DNA of 44,190 bases from a virus: IMG/VR virus record IMGVR_UViG_3300033064_000522, positions 1 to 44,190 of that record; one strand, written 5' to 3'. The notes under the pieces are model-generated. The model searched no databases. It saw nothing but the letters and a program-made list of their open reading frames with translations, and was not told the DNA's origin. A program made the translations under genes and the position numbers. Positions within the stretch are counted from its first letter, which is position 1; every line of letters starts with the position of its first letter. Below are positions 4,001 through 33,844 of the stretch, one piece after another.

Positions 4001-7000
4001 TCTCATTTAGATGAAGGATTTAGATCTTCAAGCAGACCAGATCTTCATAGTCAATTAATGTCTGATTATGGAATAACACAACAACAAGCTTCAGATCCAA
4101 GAACTTCTGTTAAGAGCGGCCTACTTGCTGCCTATCATAAATTTTTTAATCAAGGAACTGCAAGAGGTACGTTGCCAATAGATGCAGCTATAAGTTATTT
4201 AAGTGGAGAACCAGTTTCTGTTTCTGGGAAAGGGTTATACGATCCTTCTAGCAAAAATTCCGTAAGACATGATCCTTTAATTGCATATGGACCACTCATG
4301 GATGATCTAGGAATTAGAGGAAGAAGCAGGATAGAGTTTGCTGCAGATTTAGATAGACAAATGGTTGAGGATTTAAATTTGCAAAAAAGTAGAGGAAAAA
4401 TATTTTTATCAGATGAAATTTCTGGAAAGAATGCTTCTGGGCAAGCAAGGTCTTCTATACTTGGAAGATCAGTTGGTTCTGTTTCACAAAGATATGGTAA
4501 TTCTATAAGAAGAGCATTTAATGCATTAAGTGAACCTCAAGAGGTACGTGTTGCAAGAGAAAGATCTGCTGGAGATATAGCAAGTGGTCGTGGGGCAAGT
4601 ACAAACAGAATATTTAGAAGGAATGAATCTAGAGTTACATCTGCGGTTTCTGCTATAAGAGCTGGAAGAGGAGTTCCTACTTTTGGCGGCAGAGCTCTTG
4701 AGTTTGCAAGTAAAGCCATAAGAAGAAGAAATGCTGGCGGATATATTGAAATGAATGCTGGAGGAATGGTTTCAATGCCACCAGCACTTCCAATCCCACC
4801 ACAAAATGGAAAATACAATATGGGCGGAATGGTTCAAGGATATAACCGTGGTGGAATGATTGCACAAATGTTACTTCCAATGCTTGGATACATGGGTGGG
4901 CAATCAATAGGAACTCAAGTTGGTGGCGCTGGTGGAGGTTTCACTGGCGGAATGATTGGATCAATGATTCCTTCAATGCTTATGGGAGGCATGGGGTCAG
5001 CTAGAACTAAAACGGCTCCAGGCTCTGATGAGGCTTATGATAAATATGCAAACAGGGTAGGCAAATCAACCTTAGCAAATAATAAATTTTCATTATCCTT
5101 AGCTAACTCAGCGGCACAAGGATCTAGAGTGTCTGGAGTTCTTACTACTCTTATAGGAGGACTAACTAAAACAAATCTTGTAGTAGCTGGAGTAACAACT
5201 GTCTTAGCAGCTGGATACTCAGCATTTAAAAATTATCAAGAAGGCGTTAAACTAAATGTATCTACATTTGGCCTTACCGCTGAAGCTGCAGAAAAAGCTG
5301 GACTAAAAGTAACAGATTACAATTCGGCTATTAAAAATTCTACCGATACAATAAATGCAACTATTGAAAGAAATAAAATGCTTTACGATAGCATGAACTC
5401 TGCTGGAATTCCAATTAAGATGACTATTGAAGAATACAAAAAATTAAAAGAAGAAGTTAAAAGCAGCATGGGCGAGTCTATTCAAGCAATTAATAGAATG
5501 AAAGAAACAGATCTAAAAGATTATGCAGAAAGACTAAAGGCCCAAATGATTGCAGCTGGATCTTCTGCAGATGACGCTGCTAAAAAAATATATGCAGCAT
5601 TTGCCTTGTCTAACAAAGCTGAATTGGCGGGAGCTTCAACAGTAGGTAATATTGGATTTAATAAAATACAAGACGGAATAACAGCAGCAATAGAAGCCTA
5701 TCAAGTATTTAATGATACGGTTAAAAATGAAAGCGCAGCCGCTCAGGGAATGGCTTTAACAACATCTATGGAGGCAGCCAATAAAGCTGTAGAAGAAGCA
5801 ATTGCTCTTAGCCAAAAGAAAGCTGATGCGGACAAGACTGGCAAGACCGCATTAATATCTAGATCTCAAGCAGAACTTCAAGTTTATGATGTAATAAAAT
5901 CTAAAGTTTCTGAACAAGCAAATGTTTCTCAAGGCCTGTTAGATAATATTTTTGCTCAAAATAGAGAAGCAAAAAAATTCCTTTCATTACAAGATACTTC
6001 TTTAAGCATATATCAAAAATTAAGACTTCAAGCTCAGGGCTACACAGGAGACTTAGCAAAAGGTGCCATAGAGGCAGATCGACTGTTTTCAATGAGAACC
6101 GCAATTGAATCTAGCGTTACATCATTTTCTACTTCTCAAGGTGGACCACTGTTTGGAATATCTCAAAAACTAATAGCAGCCGAAAAACAATATAAAAAAT
6201 TACAAGCGGCATCTAAAGGCGCTAGCGCTCAACAGCAAATAGACTCAAGAAAAGCTGGCGAAGCAATTGATGAAAGAATTAAAAAGATTAAAGAAGAGGC
6301 TGATGCAAGACGTAAAGCCCTAACTCAAACACTACAAGATGAGGATTTCTTAACTGAGATTAAGAAAAAACAATTAGAGTATCAAGATGCCTTGGCCTCT
6401 GGAGATATGTCAAGGGCGGCTCAGGCACAGCTTGACATTCAGTCATTAAATAGAAAACAGCAAACCAACAAAGCAATGGACGCAATTGATGAAAAAGAAA
6501 AATCTGATCTTAAGCCACTAGAGGCTCAAAGAAAAGCGCTTTCAGATGCTAATCAAAAACTTTCAGACTCAGCTTCATTAGCTGGCAATGGCTTACAAAA
6601 ACTTGCAGCAGATATAGAAAAATACAAAACACAAATGTCTGGATTCACTAATGCTTTAACTAACTTCCTTGCATTTATAAATGATAAAGATAATAAGGGT
6701 AAAAGTGCAGCAGGACCAGCAGCAGCATTGGTAGACGCATCTAAAGCAATTGGATTTGATATGCCAAGTAGTTTTTCTGGCCCAAGACCAAAGGGAACTA
6801 CTGAGATAGCGCAAGAAATTGCTTCAAGATTCCCAGAGTTATTAAAAACTATAAATGCAGATTCAGCTGTTATTAATGTGAACTCAGCAATAATTGATGA
6901 GAAAAAAATTGCAGACATAAAAAATGTTAGACCTATGGGAACTACTGGAAGAGGAGGATCTGGATTTATACCAAGACCTTCAGCAACTACTGTTTATGGA

Positions 7001-7339
7001 AAAGATCCAGTAGTAGTACCAAGGTATCAAACAGGAAGTACCTATACTTATAGTGCTCCAGTGGCTCCTGTTAAAAAATCAATGGGTGGATTAATTAAAA
7101 TGTCTACCTTTCCTAAAATGTCTTCTGGTGGACCAGTAATAAATACCGTTCCTAAATATAATTCAGGGGGATTTGTTAATCGTTCAAGTAGCTCATCTTC
7201 TTCTTCGGTAAACATAGGCACTATAGCGGTAACAATGACATCAACACCAGATAATCCTAAAAAGTTTTTTGCTGATCTTAAAGAAATAGCAAGACAAGAG
7301 GGAGCCAAAGTAAGCCCTGGAGGTAAAAAAGCACAATGA
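1067..7339 (+). CDS. Tail tape measure protein
   Basis: A 2090-residue protein, by far the largest gene and directly after the chaperones. The N-terminal 150 residues are helical with coiled-coil character. A TP901-type tape measure core follows (about 160-560), ending in a hydrophobic segment (LGILGMFTAVAGPLIMLTGV) near 545. Around 915-936 is the Gly/Pro motif PALLTPGEFVVNREA, common in tape measure proteins. Residues about 940-1220 form a polar module of unknown nature. Glycine-rich membrane-like stretches follow near 1260-1310 and 1360, then long coiled coils to about 1880 and a Gly/Ser-rich tail. The RBS AAGGAG at 1049 is 12 bases from the ATG. At roughly 0.15 nm per residue the tail would be near 300 nm, an inference. 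Confidence 0.93.
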   Translation: MADEQIVTNIVATSDFSNLIVDLNKVSSALTKLQDKLQATNKTLAAQVAVMNRSFADTIRSTGQFSTHFVSLTSDVDKFGQQLDKGQMKLGQFFRTYASHAKTNGGLVRDLAKQQVQLQNSILQPLGRNAEGLMQYNVHIPRGLDVVKNKTAIARQELMIMNKMVQEGANSLINFGKNTQWAGRQLTIGLTVPIVAFGKASADAFRSADEQLVRLTKVYGGISQTSTSELLKVRKDVVETARQISKSMGAGFNETIGLAADIAATGKTGNELLKSVQETTRLAVLGEVDRQEAMKATLAIQSAFKQNTEELTETINFLNAVENQTSTTLNDLVEAIPKAGPIIKGLGGTVQDLALYLTAMREGGVNASEGANALKSALASLINPTNVAKDKFLSFGISLENIVNQNAGNTTATILELQSALDTLNPLQKQQALEQLFGKFQFARMNALFENLGRQGSQTLQVLDLMKASSQDLANLAGRELSQVTESASGRYRRALEGLKADLAAVGDQFLTINTHLINFVDGIIKFVNRLPDPIKKVLGILGMFTAVAGPLIMLTGVLANFFGYIIKGVSHMRALFKGGEGFKLLTPEILAAQRAGDLVEKTFYSDAKAAAVLKQSIAALSAEFTLLQQRANSAAISVNPAISTAAGNVIIGGQRVVDPNNPLAGKMGTRAAGHHNPVSIMDANARVNQTIHSFTPQPIPVNRKIGAVPQIFADGDLPSIEGLTTSRGVSTGIVAGEAAKHHALMGTLSMLSKRETTELKHQIKTTGSFSTEINTTFAALVPEMTKLTTNAARQSAAIVQQLQAGKITMEAARAKIIAINAQLEAMMGQATTQLATSLGRTANLTQVPLINQPIVSPKGKANMKEIFRSGRPGSGIIDRIARVLGVKTYGAGYSTETTIPKMNSGGNVVPGPNVNADVVPALLTPGEFVVNREATAANLPLLTALNNNRGSNGPGYNTGSRKEIRSSVRSMLEGRQMSHLDEGFRSSSRPDLHSQLMSDYGITQQQASDPRTSVKSGLLAAYHKFFNQGTARGTLPIDAAISYLSGEPVSVSGKGLYDPSSKNSVRHDPLIAYGPLMDDLGIRGRSRIEFAADLDRQMVEDLNLQKSRGKIFLSDEISGKNASGQARSSILGRSVGSVSQRYGNSIRRAFNALSEPQEVRVARERSAGDIASGRGASTNRIFRRNESRVTSAVSAIRAGRGVPTFGGRALEFASKAIRRRNAGGYIEMNAGGMVSMPPALPIPPQNGKYNMGGMVQGYNRGGMIAQMLLPMLGYMGGQSIGTQVGGAGGGFTGGMIGSMIPSMLMGGMGSARTKTAPGSDEAYDKYANRVGKSTLANNKFSLSLANSAAQGSRVSGVLTTLIGGLTKTNLVVAGVTTVLAAGYSAFKNYQEGVKLNVSTFGLTAEAAEKAGLKVTDYNSAIKNSTDTINATIERNKMLYDSMNSAGIPIKMTIEEYKKLKEEVKSSMGESIQAINRMKETDLKDYAERLKAQMIAAGSSADDAAKKIYAAFALSNKAELAGASTVGNIGFNKIQDGITAAIEAYQVFNDTVKNESAAAQGMALTTSMEAANKAVEEAIALSQKKADADKTGKTALISRSQAELQVYDVIKSKVSEQANVSQGLLDNIFAQNREAKKFLSLQDTSLSIYQKLRLQAQGYTGDLAKGAIEADRLFSMRTAIESSVTSFSTSQGGPLFGISQKLIAAEKQYKKLQAASKGASAQQQIDSRKAGEAIDERIKKIKEEADARRKALTQTLQDEDFLTEIKKKQLEYQDALASGDMSRAAQAQLDIQSLNRKQQTNKAMDAIDEKEKSDLKPLEAQRKALSDANQKLSDSASLAGNGLQKLAADIEKYKTQMSGFTNALTNFLAFINDKDNKGKSAAGPAAALVDASKAIGFDMPSSFSGPRPKGTTEIAQEIASRFPELLKTINADSAVINVNSAIIDEKKIADIKNVRPMGTTGRGGSGFIPRPSATTVYGKDPVVVPRYQTGSTYTYSAPVAPVKKSMGGLIKMSTFPKMSSGGPVINTVPKYNSGGFVNRSSSSSSSSVNIGTIAVTMTSTPDNPKKFFADLKEIARQEGAKVSPGGKKAQ

Positions 7340-7794
7340 CACATTTAACTCTACCAGTAGGATCTATCCTATATTTAAACTCAAACATTAAACTATCAGA
7401 GCACAACAGACAGCCAATTGCTATATCAAAAACAAGAATAGAGCAAAGCAAGAGAATGTCTAATGGAACATTCCGTAAATTCTTTATTGCAGATAAAGAG
7501 GGTATTTCTGTATCCTGGAATATGCTCCCTTCTTTTTCAACCTTTACTATAGATGGAGGATACGGTGCAGTAGACTTAAAAACATTTTATGAAGGAACAG
7601 CCGCTAAAGCCGCAGGCGCATTATCTGGACAATCAACATTTGACGTATCAATAAATTACGGAGGAGCAACAAGACAAATAGAGATGGTGTTTACAAGTTG
7701 CTCGTTTGAAATTGTACGAAGAAACGTAAAAGAAAATGTAGGAAATACCCCGCAGGAGTTCTGGAACGTATCCATATCAATGGAACAAGTGTAA
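7336..7794 (+). CDS. Probable distal tail protein (Dit position)
   Basis: A 152-residue beta-rich protein whose ATG overlaps the tape measure stop (ATGA), implying translational coupling. No motif is diagnostic. The position between the tape measure and a hub-like protein is that of the distal tail protein in many siphophages, and features such as GTFRKFFIADKEGISVSWN and a C-terminal WNVSISMEQV strand suit a tail-tip beta sandwich. It is shorter than classic Dit proteins (about 200-300 residues), so it may be a Dit core domain or another minor tail protein. Confidence 0.45.
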   Translation: MTHLTLPVGSILYLNSNIKLSEHNRQPIAISKTRIEQSKRMSNGTFRKFFIADKEGISVSWNMLPSFSTFTIDGGYGAVDLKTFYEGTAAKAAGALSGQSTFDVSINYGGATRQIEMVFTSCSFEIVRRNVKENVGNTPQEFWNVSISMEQV

Positions 7795-32497: not shown

Positions 32498-32748
32498 GCG
32501 ACTACCAAGATAAAGCAAAAGAGTGTAAATGTTGTGGAAAACACGTTCCGCTTCCAATAGTTCTTAAAGAATATTTTGGAAACACGGTCTGCCCTACTAC
32601 ATTTGCAAACATCGTAGAGTATAAAAGAATGTGGATTAGCCTAGGCAAAAGACCACAAGGCAATATCAGAAAGCATTTTTCTGACTATGTTCAACAAATA
32701 GTAGAACAAACAATTGATAAAAAAGAAGACGGAAGCCTACAGAGCTAA
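32494..32748 (+). CDS. Small zinc-binding protein after terminase
   Basis: An 84-residue protein, ATG overlapping the terminase stop (ATGA). C11-x-C13-C14 (ECKCCGKHVP) and C33 (VCPTTF) may bind zinc. A C-terminal helix (IRKHFSDYVQQIVEQTIDKK) follows. The function is unknown. Confidence 0.6.
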   Translation: MSDYQDKAKECKCCGKHVPLPIVLKEYFGNTVCPTTFANIVEYKRMWISLGKRPQGNIRKHFSDYVQQIVEQTIDKKEDGSLQS

Positions 32749-32754
32749 TTGCTG

Positions 32755-32760
32755 TATAAT
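32755..32760 (+). promoter_or_regulatory. -10 element before the 110-aa gene
   Basis: TATAAT at 32755-32760 with no good -35. The predicted start near 32767 leaves a short leader with AGAAGG (32772-32777) before the ATG at 32783. Confidence 0.5.
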
Positions 32761-32782
32761 TATATGCAGAAAGAAGGTTGCT

Positions 32783-33115
32783 ATGTTTGAAGATGAGTAT
32801 GAGGACGAGCAAGACGGACAGGATCTTTCTGTCTACATGGAAATGGGAGTCATAGAGTTAGAAGGAATGGACGAAAACGGAGAAGCAATTTTCTCTATAA
32901 ACGAAAGCGCTAAAATTTTAGCCCCACACTTATGGCAATCTCATATAGACTATGTAGATAAATCTTTAATAGAATTATACGAAGCTGGTTTAGTTAAGGT
33001 TGAGTACAACGAAGACTTAGAGGCAACCTTTCTTTTGTCCCCAGAAGGACACGCCCTTGCAAAAGAAAAGGGACTAATTGAAATGGATATTAATAGGAAT
33101 ATTCCGAACGACTAA
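32783..33115 (+). CDS. Acidic protein, 110 aa, winged-helix-like
   Basis: Start at ATG 32783 because AGAAGG lies 5 bases upstream; an earlier in-frame start near 32714 would lie upstream of the promoter. The first 20 residues are almost all Asp/Glu. The rest (SHIDYVDKSLIELYEAGLVK then VEYNEDLEATFLLSPEG) resembles a winged helix with a DNA-mimic-like acidic head. It could be a regulator or an antagonist of a host DNA-binding protein; both are inference. Confidence 0.6.
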   Translation: MFEDEYEDEQDGQDLSVYMEMGVIELEGMDENGEAIFSINESAKILAPHLWQSHIDYVDKSLIELYEAGLVKVEYNEDLEATFLLSPEGHALAKEKGLIEMDINRNIPND

Positions 33116-33141
33116 AAAAGACCAAGAGAACAAAAAAATAG

Positions 33142-33147
33142 TATAAT
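33142..33147 (+). promoter_or_regulatory. -10 element of the structured RNA
   Basis: TATAAT at 33142-33147, with a weak AAGACC at -35. The predicted start falls at 33154, inside the first stem of the structured RNA that follows (33151 onward), or a few bases earlier. Confidence 0.55.
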
Positions 33148-33150
33148 AAG

Positions 33151-33234
33151 AACCTGCACCCCTTCATCGGGGAGTCGCAGGTTATTCGGGTCGCTACCCG
33201 AAGGATGGACCTGAGTACGTCCGCAAACTGCTCA
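33151..33234 (+). ncRNA. Structured RNA / leader with three hairpins and possible pseudoknot
   Basis: Stem 1 AACCTGC (33151-33157) with GCAGGTT (33177-33183), enclosing CCCC (33159-33162) and GGGG (33169-33172). Stem 2 TTCGGGT (33185-33191) with ACCCGAA (33196-33202), loop CGCT. Stem 3 GGAC (33207-33210) with GTCC (33219-33222). Loop bases TGAGTA (33212-33217) can pair with TGCTCA (33229-33234), one G-U, making an H-type pseudoknot. It is GC-rich against an AT-rich background, has a -10 before it and no credible reading frame. It may be a small RNA or a 5' leader of the nuclease gene at 33255. I recognise no known family. Confidence 0.7.
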
Positions 33235-33254
33235 TTTAAAATTTAAGGAGAGTT

Positions 33255-33662
33255 ATGTTCGAGTACAGAGTTAAACAAATTACAAAGGTAGTAGACGGAG
33301 ACACTATTGATGTTGATATTGATTTAGGATTTAGTATTTCTTACTCTCAAAGATTAAGATTAGCTGGCATAGATACACCAGAATCTAGAACAACAGATAA
33401 GCTTGAAAAAACTTTAGGCCTTGAATCAAAAGAGTATCTTAAGTCTAAATTTAAAAATGCTGTATCAATAATTGTAAAAACAGAAAAGCCAGACAGTACA
33501 GAGAAGTACGGTCGTATTCTTGGATGGGTATACCTTGATGGAAATACAAAGTCTGTTAATGAACAAATGATTGAAGACGGATACGCCTGGGGATACATGG
33601 GCGAAACTAAGGTTAAAGACTTTGTAGCCTTAGCAGAAAAGAGAAAGAAGAGCGGTAAATAG
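33255..33662 (+). CDS. Thermonuclease-like (SNase fold) nuclease
   Basis: A 135-residue protein, RBS AAGGAG before ATG 33255. The SNase signature is VVDGDT (12-17), RLAGIDTPE (R35, D40, T41, E43) and YGR (R87), at the same numbers as in mature staphylococcal nuclease. It cleaves DNA and RNA with calcium. There is no signal peptide, so it acts inside the cell, perhaps on host DNA. It follows the structured RNA, which may be its leader. Confidence 0.88.
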   Translation: MFEYRVKQITKVVDGDTIDVDIDLGFSISYSQRLRLAGIDTPESRTTDKLEKTLGLESKEYLKSKFKNAVSIIVKTEKPDSTEKYGRILGWVYLDGNTKSVNEQMIEDGYAWGYMGETKVKDFVALAEKRKKSGK

Positions 33663-33844
33663 TGCCGAATTACGAATACTCATGTTCATCCTGCAACAAA
33701 TCTACAGAAGTTAACAGAAAGTTTGATGATAAAGAAATAATCCCTCCTTGCCCTTCCTGTGGATATAGAATGACAAGATCCTATGGTGCAGTTGGAGTAC
33801 AGTTTAAAGGGTCTGGGTTTTACAAAACAGATAATCCTAAGTAA
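33662..33844 (+). CDS. FmdB-like zinc ribbon, 60 aa
   Basis: Starts at GTG 33662, overlapping the stop before it. CSSC and CPSC knuckles with the family ending GVQFKGSGFYKTDNPK match the FmdB/regulatory zinc-ribbon group, whose members are thought to bind proteins or nucleic acid. The function in phage is unknown. Confidence 0.8.
   Translation: MPNYEYSCSSCNKSTEVNRKFDDKEIIPPCPSCGYRMTRSYGAVGVQFKGSGFYKTDNPK

Follow-up and report, generated by a model that had tools for sequence, protein, structure and literature searches.

We analysed a 44,190-nucleotide stretch of viral DNA (IMG/VR record IMGVR_UViG_3300033064_000522, positions 1 to 44,190), here called the window. Behind the stop codon of an upstream gene and ahead of a gene for a SNase-family nuclease, the window carries a compact structured element whose parts are listed in Table 1. 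A sequence-only reading had described this element as three stems with a possible loop-to-3' pseudoknot, placed between a TATAAT and the ribosome-binding site of the nuclease gene. We found all three stems at the positions in Table 1, the placement is as described, and the loop-to-3' pairing is a genuine pseudoknot. The predicted fold of the 99-nt stretch has an energy of -34.2 kcal/mol, against -23.75 ± 3.15 kcal/mol for shuffled versions (z = -3.3), and one of 200 shuffles folds as well. The key part of the structure is its 3' third, an H-type pseudoknot at 33207-33234 that we call the knot. The same reading had recognised no RNA family, in agreement with our search of the window with Rfam 15, which gave nothing at gathering score; at E ≤ 10 the single match was a chance one to snoR18 (E 3.2), beside the element. 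A tRNA/tmRNA search of the window found none.

Table 1. Features of the structured element and its flanking genes (positions in the window)
Feature	Positions	Strand	Remarks
TAA stop of the upstream gene (ORF 32714-33115)	33113-33115	+	
GTATAATA, probable -10 of the cassette's own promoter	33141-33148	+	TATAAT at 33142-33147
Hairpin 1 (HP1)	33151-33183	+	Predicted 5' end of transcript; alone -17.7 kcal/mol
Hairpin 2 (HP2)	33185-33202	+	Alone -8.5 kcal/mol
Pseudoknot stem 1, 5' strand GGAC	33207-33210	+	Pairs with 33219-33222; covariation
Loop 1, single C	33211	+	Conserved, but partly imposed by search patterns
Pseudoknot stem 2, 5' strand UGAGUA	33212-33217	+	Pairs with 33229-33234; compensatory and mismatch scans, other stem-2 types
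Unpaired inter-stem spacer, 1 nt	33218	+	Usually A/U; C in the window
Pseudoknot stem 1, 3' strand GUCC	33219-33222	+	Covariation
Loop 3, 3' end AAAC	33223-33228	+	AAAC in every copy found, but demanded by search patterns
Pseudoknot stem 2, 3' strand UGCUCA	33229-33234	+	Compensatory and mismatch scans, covariation
A/U tail without G, 3' of the pseudoknot	33235-33244	+	
Shine-Dalgarno sequence (SD) AAGGAG of the SNase gene	33245-33250	+	
SNase-family nuclease gene (PF00565)	33255-33662	+	Led by the cassette; ATG at 33255
Zn-ribbon protein gene (PF09723)	33662-33844	+	Overlaps the SNase stop

The window copy is part of a mobile cassette, placed ahead of SNase or Zn-ribbon genes, that consists of GTATAATA, one or two 5' hairpins, the knot, an AU-rich tail and an SD. 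That the element has a -10 of its own had been proposed before and is borne out by its relatives: GTATAATA is invariant in 18 aligned leaders while the upstream flanking DNA varies, and TATAAT precedes all 95 distinct HP1 copies that we found. By eye, no -35 consensus lies upstream of GTATAATA. Of the HP1 copies, 93 end in the knot and the other two in a knot with a broken stem 2. Nearly all of these cassettes are followed by an SD and the start of a SNase or, less commonly, a Zn-ribbon gene; in some relatives the Zn-ribbon gene lies directly 3' of the cassette. The upstream gene differs among relatives and often encodes an Hsp20-like C-terminus ending in TIKIK.

The 5' hairpins are the changeable part of the cassette. 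Among IMG/VR relatives of the SNase gene, the same knot occurs in about 35 leaders with 5' hairpins exchanged, shortened or missing. HP1 is absent from some (L012, L027, L030 and L053), and the leaders of L053 and L057 are reduced to a stop, 5 nt, the knot and an SD. Upstream of SNase in L014 and L032, most of the element is lost and the 3' strand CTGCTC..AAGGAG is retained. We also observed a second composite RNA in the same slot after the same -10 (L066, L091, L092, L124, L135, L141, L155 and L207). It comprises TATAATA, about 110 nt of conserved sequence (..CAACGGATGCTC..GTTAGCAGGAGTTGAATCTTCGTGGCTAAT..) as its body, and the knot with a 3-nt spacer; no SD comes after it, and it is possibly a phage small RNA. 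Rfam gave no hit for it in L091 and L092.

Both helices of the pseudoknot

Covariation among homologues had been suggested as a check on the fold, and it supports the fold. In the 18-leader alignment, HP2 (both-sided changes in four of seven pairs) and stem 1 of the knot covary, and stem 2 is supported by the wider family described below. The core of HP1 is almost invariant in this alignment, with few changes in its outer pairs, and is too conserved for a covariation test there. The consensus of the knot is NNNC-C-UGAGCA-W-GNNN-N2+AAAC-UGCUCA.

We scanned IMG/VR with a knot-only pattern, CCTGAGCAN{3,12}AAACTGCTC, in which stem 2 is fixed. The matches listed come mostly from contexts unrelated to SNase, with at most four copies per locus. 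Among them, stem 1 has at least 3 bp in 129 of 134 distinct matches and at least 4 bp in 104 of 129 copies, compared with a shuffled mean of 13. Because this pattern fixed stem 2, a separate test of that helix was needed. A compensatory stem-2 variant, TGGGCA/TGCCC, was present in at least 120 stretches and was accompanied by stem 1 in 107 of 115 distinct copies among the matches listed. In contrast, a completed scan with the mismatch control TGAGCA/TGCCC returned 56 stretches, with stem 1 in 9 of 35 distinct readable copies. When any pairing was allowed in stem 2, the fetched loci yielded 305 copies, 88 of them with other stem-2 sequences (TAAGCA/TGCTT, TGGACA/TGTCC, TGGCCA/TGGCC and others). 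Chance origin is ruled out by the same kind of scan on shuffled DNA: the strict version found zero matches in 2.2 Mb, and a laxer one about 1.4 matches per Mb.

For 86 non-redundant copies, the covariation score was 0.631, against 0.219 for shuffled copies and at most 0.147 when slid; both-sided changes filled 198 cells, against 63 when shuffled. The percentage of pairing is inflated by selection of the copies, and the diversity of pairs is unaffected by it. Judged by these comparisons of sequences, the pseudoknot is real, with both helices supported by homologues and stem 1 freely covarying. The loop 1 C and the loop 3 AAAC were demanded by the searches, hence their conservation is partly imposed. 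With a single nucleotide in loop 1 spanning the 6-bp stem 2, and an AAAC loop across stem 1, the knot has the features required for a tight, triplex-like H-pseudoknot.

Distribution and neighbours of the knot

More than 400 distinct copies of the knot were found, in phages of Cyanobacteria, Actinobacteria, Bacillota and Alphaproteobacteria and in crAss-like phages. Among annotated phages, verified copies are those of Mycobacterium Labelle, Acutalibacteraceae NatCom_11578, Paracoccus ParKuw1, the cyanophages S-RIM4 and S-CRM01, crAss-like cr7_1, Lactobacillus Lj771 and phig1e, Roseobacter SIO1, Arthrobacter Amigo, thermophilic D6E and Nostoc NMeng1. In Amigo, the order is SSB, knot, tRNA-Gly. 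Near-matches that the strict scan missed occur in S-EIVl, Bacillus poppyseed, Staphylococcus StB12 and Streptococcus Javan271. In BLAST searches of phages, a 141-nt query was uninformative and 30-nt queries worked. In Lj771, phig1e and D6E, the knot separates the portal/minor-head genes from the scaffold-capsid (or next capsid) module, and the near-matches of StB12, Javan271 and poppyseed occupy the same slot. Elsewhere the knot stands behind gene after gene, with 11 copies in 13 kb of L503, 8 in 6.3 kb of L491 and 8 in 13.8 kb of L394.

The knot had no match in 5,426 E. coli genomes. Pattern matches in bacterial genomes were mostly chance (stem 1 shorter than 3 bp in 82 of 117), and only those with the structure intact were used; a match in Pelagibacter HTVC115P, inside a gene, was likewise attributed to chance. 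An Rfam scan of 56 loci, at gathering score, placed no family over the pseudoknot, and at the knots of L254, L334 and L093 the adjoining hammerhead alone was significant. We found no prior description in the open-access journal literature covered by our search, and as an RNA family the knot appears to be new.

The position of the knot is tied to stop codons. In 38.9% of 401 distinct copies, it starts 5-10 nt after a same-strand stop, counting the stops of open frames of 60 codons or more. This spacing was found for 1.1% of random nearby positions and 3.0% of copies read on the antisense strand. Copies at 0-4 nt from the stop make up 1% (four copies, all at 4 nt). The stop is TAA in 84 of 121 cases, and in the same sample the open frames past it are short, with a median of 10 codons in frame, 9 in the -1 frame and 6 in the +1 frame.

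We found three kinds of neighbour downstream. (i) A same-strand tRNA gene, of many isotypes, begins 3-14 nt behind the knot in 23 of 236 copies, and none does so in antisense; simple arithmetic from 172 tRNAs in 1.95 Mb gives a chance expectation of about 0.2. (ii) Hammerhead ribozymes lie directly behind four knots, two in L254 and one each in L334 and L093, which puts the predicted cleavage about 6-13 nt after stem 2. (iii) Runs of at least four T occur at +1 to +10 in 21% of non-redundant copies, compared with 1-4% in neighbouring windows. Unlike in classical terminators, the U-run often sets in several nucleotides past stem 2. In all three cases, the 3' end of the RNA would fall just behind the knot. 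Across the family, G is halved at +1 to +10 after the knot. No recognised end-forming signal lies downstream in 208 of 303 copies (about two thirds).

Two of the hammerheads form a tandem. On the minus strand of L254, a Polynucleobacter contig that is probably a prophage, two successive pseudoknot-hammerhead pairs lie at 7271-7347 and 7541 to about 7620, an arrangement that suggests RNA units with ribozyme-made ends.

In a group of four loci (L491, L503, L459 and L478), most genes have their own putative promoter, TTGTCG-N16-TATAAT, behind a pseudoknot or a terminator hairpin. Eighteen distinct promoter slots in these loci are preceded by a knot with a T-run and ten by an ordinary hairpin with a T-run; the remaining slots mostly hold a knot with a broken stem 2. 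Several knots of this group carry a single stem-2 mismatch.

A candidate 3' boundary of phage mRNAs

We propose, with a probability of roughly 0.55 and from sequence comparison, that the knot is a new phage-wide H-type pseudoknot that would form the 3' boundary of mRNAs, serving both as a substitute for a terminator hairpin and as a block to exonucleases. The knot would fold 5-10 nt behind the stop, as near as a terminating ribosome should permit. An RNA 3' end would then be made 3-14 nt past it, through cleavage by RNase P (where a tRNA follows) or by a hammerhead ribozyme, through termination at a U-run, or through trimming, and the compact knot would block 3'-to-5' exonucleases. Where a U-run follows, the knot would take the place of the terminator hairpin. 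Like intrinsic terminators, it sits behind stop codons, is sometimes followed by a U-run and occupies the same pre-promoter slot in L491-type phages. Unlike them, it folds as a pseudoknot and not as a GC-rich hairpin, it lacks a U-run in most copies, and many copies precede a tRNA, a ribozyme or an SD.

It is also conceivable, at somewhat less than even odds, that the knot caps phage mRNAs universally at their 3' ends; it would cooperate with any end-maker, whether RNase P, a hammerhead or release of RNA polymerase at a U-run. If so, it would correspond, as a pseudoknot, to the intrinsic terminator and to the MALAT1 3' triple helix alike. In MALAT1, a compact tertiary fold lies upstream of mascRNA, which is cut off by RNase P, and protects the new 3' end. 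The tRNA-linked knots follow the same logic, with a fold directly upstream of an RNase P cut, although protection by the knot is putative, its fold is unrelated, and MALAT1 is a eukaryotic long noncoding RNA.

Other readings explain parts of these data. The knot could be a cis-regulatory leader of the downstream gene, riboswitch-like or a protein operator, in which UGCUC, the 3' strand of stem 2, would switch between pairing with the loop, which leaves the SD free, and pairing with the SD, which hides AAGGAG. About one third of SNase leaders do have a UGCUCCUUAA strand with strong complementarity to the SD (L016, L026 and L030 among them), and the distance from knot to SD is fairly constant among SNase leaders. 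However, many relatives show weak SD pairing or none (mean z -1.5), and in L031, where stem 2 has changed, the pairing is mostly gone; an alternative fold that hides the SD is present in some leaders and unconserved. Moreover, the family is tied to the upstream stop and not to a downstream start, and copies that precede tRNAs and hammerheads have no SD. We therefore regard this reading as unlikely. The narrower suggestion of a riboswitch-like leader of the nuclease gene, made in the sequence-only reading, was rejected, as the knot turns up in hundreds of other contexts, with diverse genes, tRNAs and ribozymes on both sides. Riboswitches of the preQ1-I type resemble the knot in size and H-type fold, whereas the knot has no Rfam match and no fixed gene set or expression platform, and follows stops. 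An element directed at the ribosome, which would halt sliding or re-initiation of terminating ribosomes or stimulate recoding as the MMTV- and MuLV-type knots do, would account for the spacing: 5-10 nt after a stop is the spacing of frameshift and readthrough pseudoknots (5-9 nt from the ribosomal A-site codon), and the H-type fold is alike, with a 1-nt loop 1, a 6-bp stem 2, one junction nucleotide and an A-rich loop 3. Unlike the viral examples, the phage knots have no extended frame past the stop in the 121 copies examined, the ground on which we rejected readthrough and frameshifting; the short frames and the preference for TAA make recoding unlikely. As this reading also leaves the tRNA, hammerhead and U-run neighbours unexplained, we consider it quite unlikely.

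The 3'-boundary reading is directed against 3'-to-5' decay; by analogy with coremin xrRNAs, the knot might instead stop a 5'-to-3' exonuclease of the RNase J type and protect the RNA downstream. Coremin is an Xrn1-resistant element of plant RNA viruses with a 4-bp hairpin that has a YGAD-type (or YGNNAD) loop, a conserved spacer and a second hairpin (PMC10520033). Both are compact 3'UTR or intergenic elements in which an A-rich spacer with AAAC at its end comes after a short hairpin, and the size and GUC..GAC..UUAAAC layout of the knot resemble coremin GUCCGAAGACGUUAAACUAC (PMC10520033); the window knot, furthermore, lies in a 5' leader. The coremin hairpin, however, is conserved in sequence and its second element is a separate hairpin, while stem 1 of the knot varies freely and the core of its 8-nt loop, C-UGAGCA-W, pairs with the 3' strand as stem 2; on these grounds we rejected membership in the coremin class. 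Coremin also blocks 5'-to-3' decay and comes from RNA viruses of eukaryotes. A cut by RNase P or a hammerhead downstream of the knot would leave the knot on the upstream RNA and the downstream RNA unprotected, and a 5'-to-3' block is in our view very unlikely. Least probable of the readings considered is that the knot is a site for an RNA-binding protein of phage or host, or else a counter-defence decoy. The strong preference of stem 2 for UGAGCA or UGGGCA and that of loop 3 for AAAC (partly imposed by the searches) would fit such a site, but stem 2 accepts many sequences if pairing is kept, the hosts are too diverse for one phage protein, and no candidate partner was found. Because the search patterns prescribed loop 1 and AAAC, a sequence-specific partner may exist. 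A decoy had been offered for the window element as well, and we found nothing in its favour.

For the window copy, the role of the knot inside the leader is less certain than a general role at mRNA 3' ends. Here and in relatives, the knot lies about 10 nt before the SD, which implies that there is no efficient terminator at this point; it probably bounds the upstream RNA, shields a leader or small RNA, or does both. The earlier idea of a phage small RNA is possible for the cassette as a whole, in that the ~110-nt body found in the same slot ends in a knot with no ribosome-binding site after it. Given this body and the unconserved hiding of the SD, the window cassette could be a knot-capped small RNA, a SNase leader or both.

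Recognisable terminators are scarce in many phages, and it is puzzling how the mRNAs of such phages are partitioned and protected. If the 3'-boundary reading is true, a knot of about 30 nt that recurs behind stops, and ahead of tRNAs, ribozymes, U-runs and capsid-gene modules, would serve as general punctuation. Annotation of transcripts and host-independent mapping of their ends would both improve, a compact and portable 3'-stability part would become available, and there would be a testable reason for some phage tRNAs and hammerheads directly behind protein genes.

We note two further sets of RNAs near knots. In an Acutalibacteraceae phage (L330, about 2525-2660) and a Clostridia genome (L283, about 5429-5560), a long conserved structured RNA (ACCG..CTGATCACTG..GGCTCAACGGT..AGCTGCCTTTTGAGCGGG..) directly follows the pseudoknot and may represent a further ribozyme-like or element RNA. 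Phage contigs with pseudoknot copies also contain, close to tRNA genes, tmRNA matches that span the model in only about 80 nt (L090, 2105-2185; L374, 5205-5289) and a drum RNA (L345, 2085-2194).
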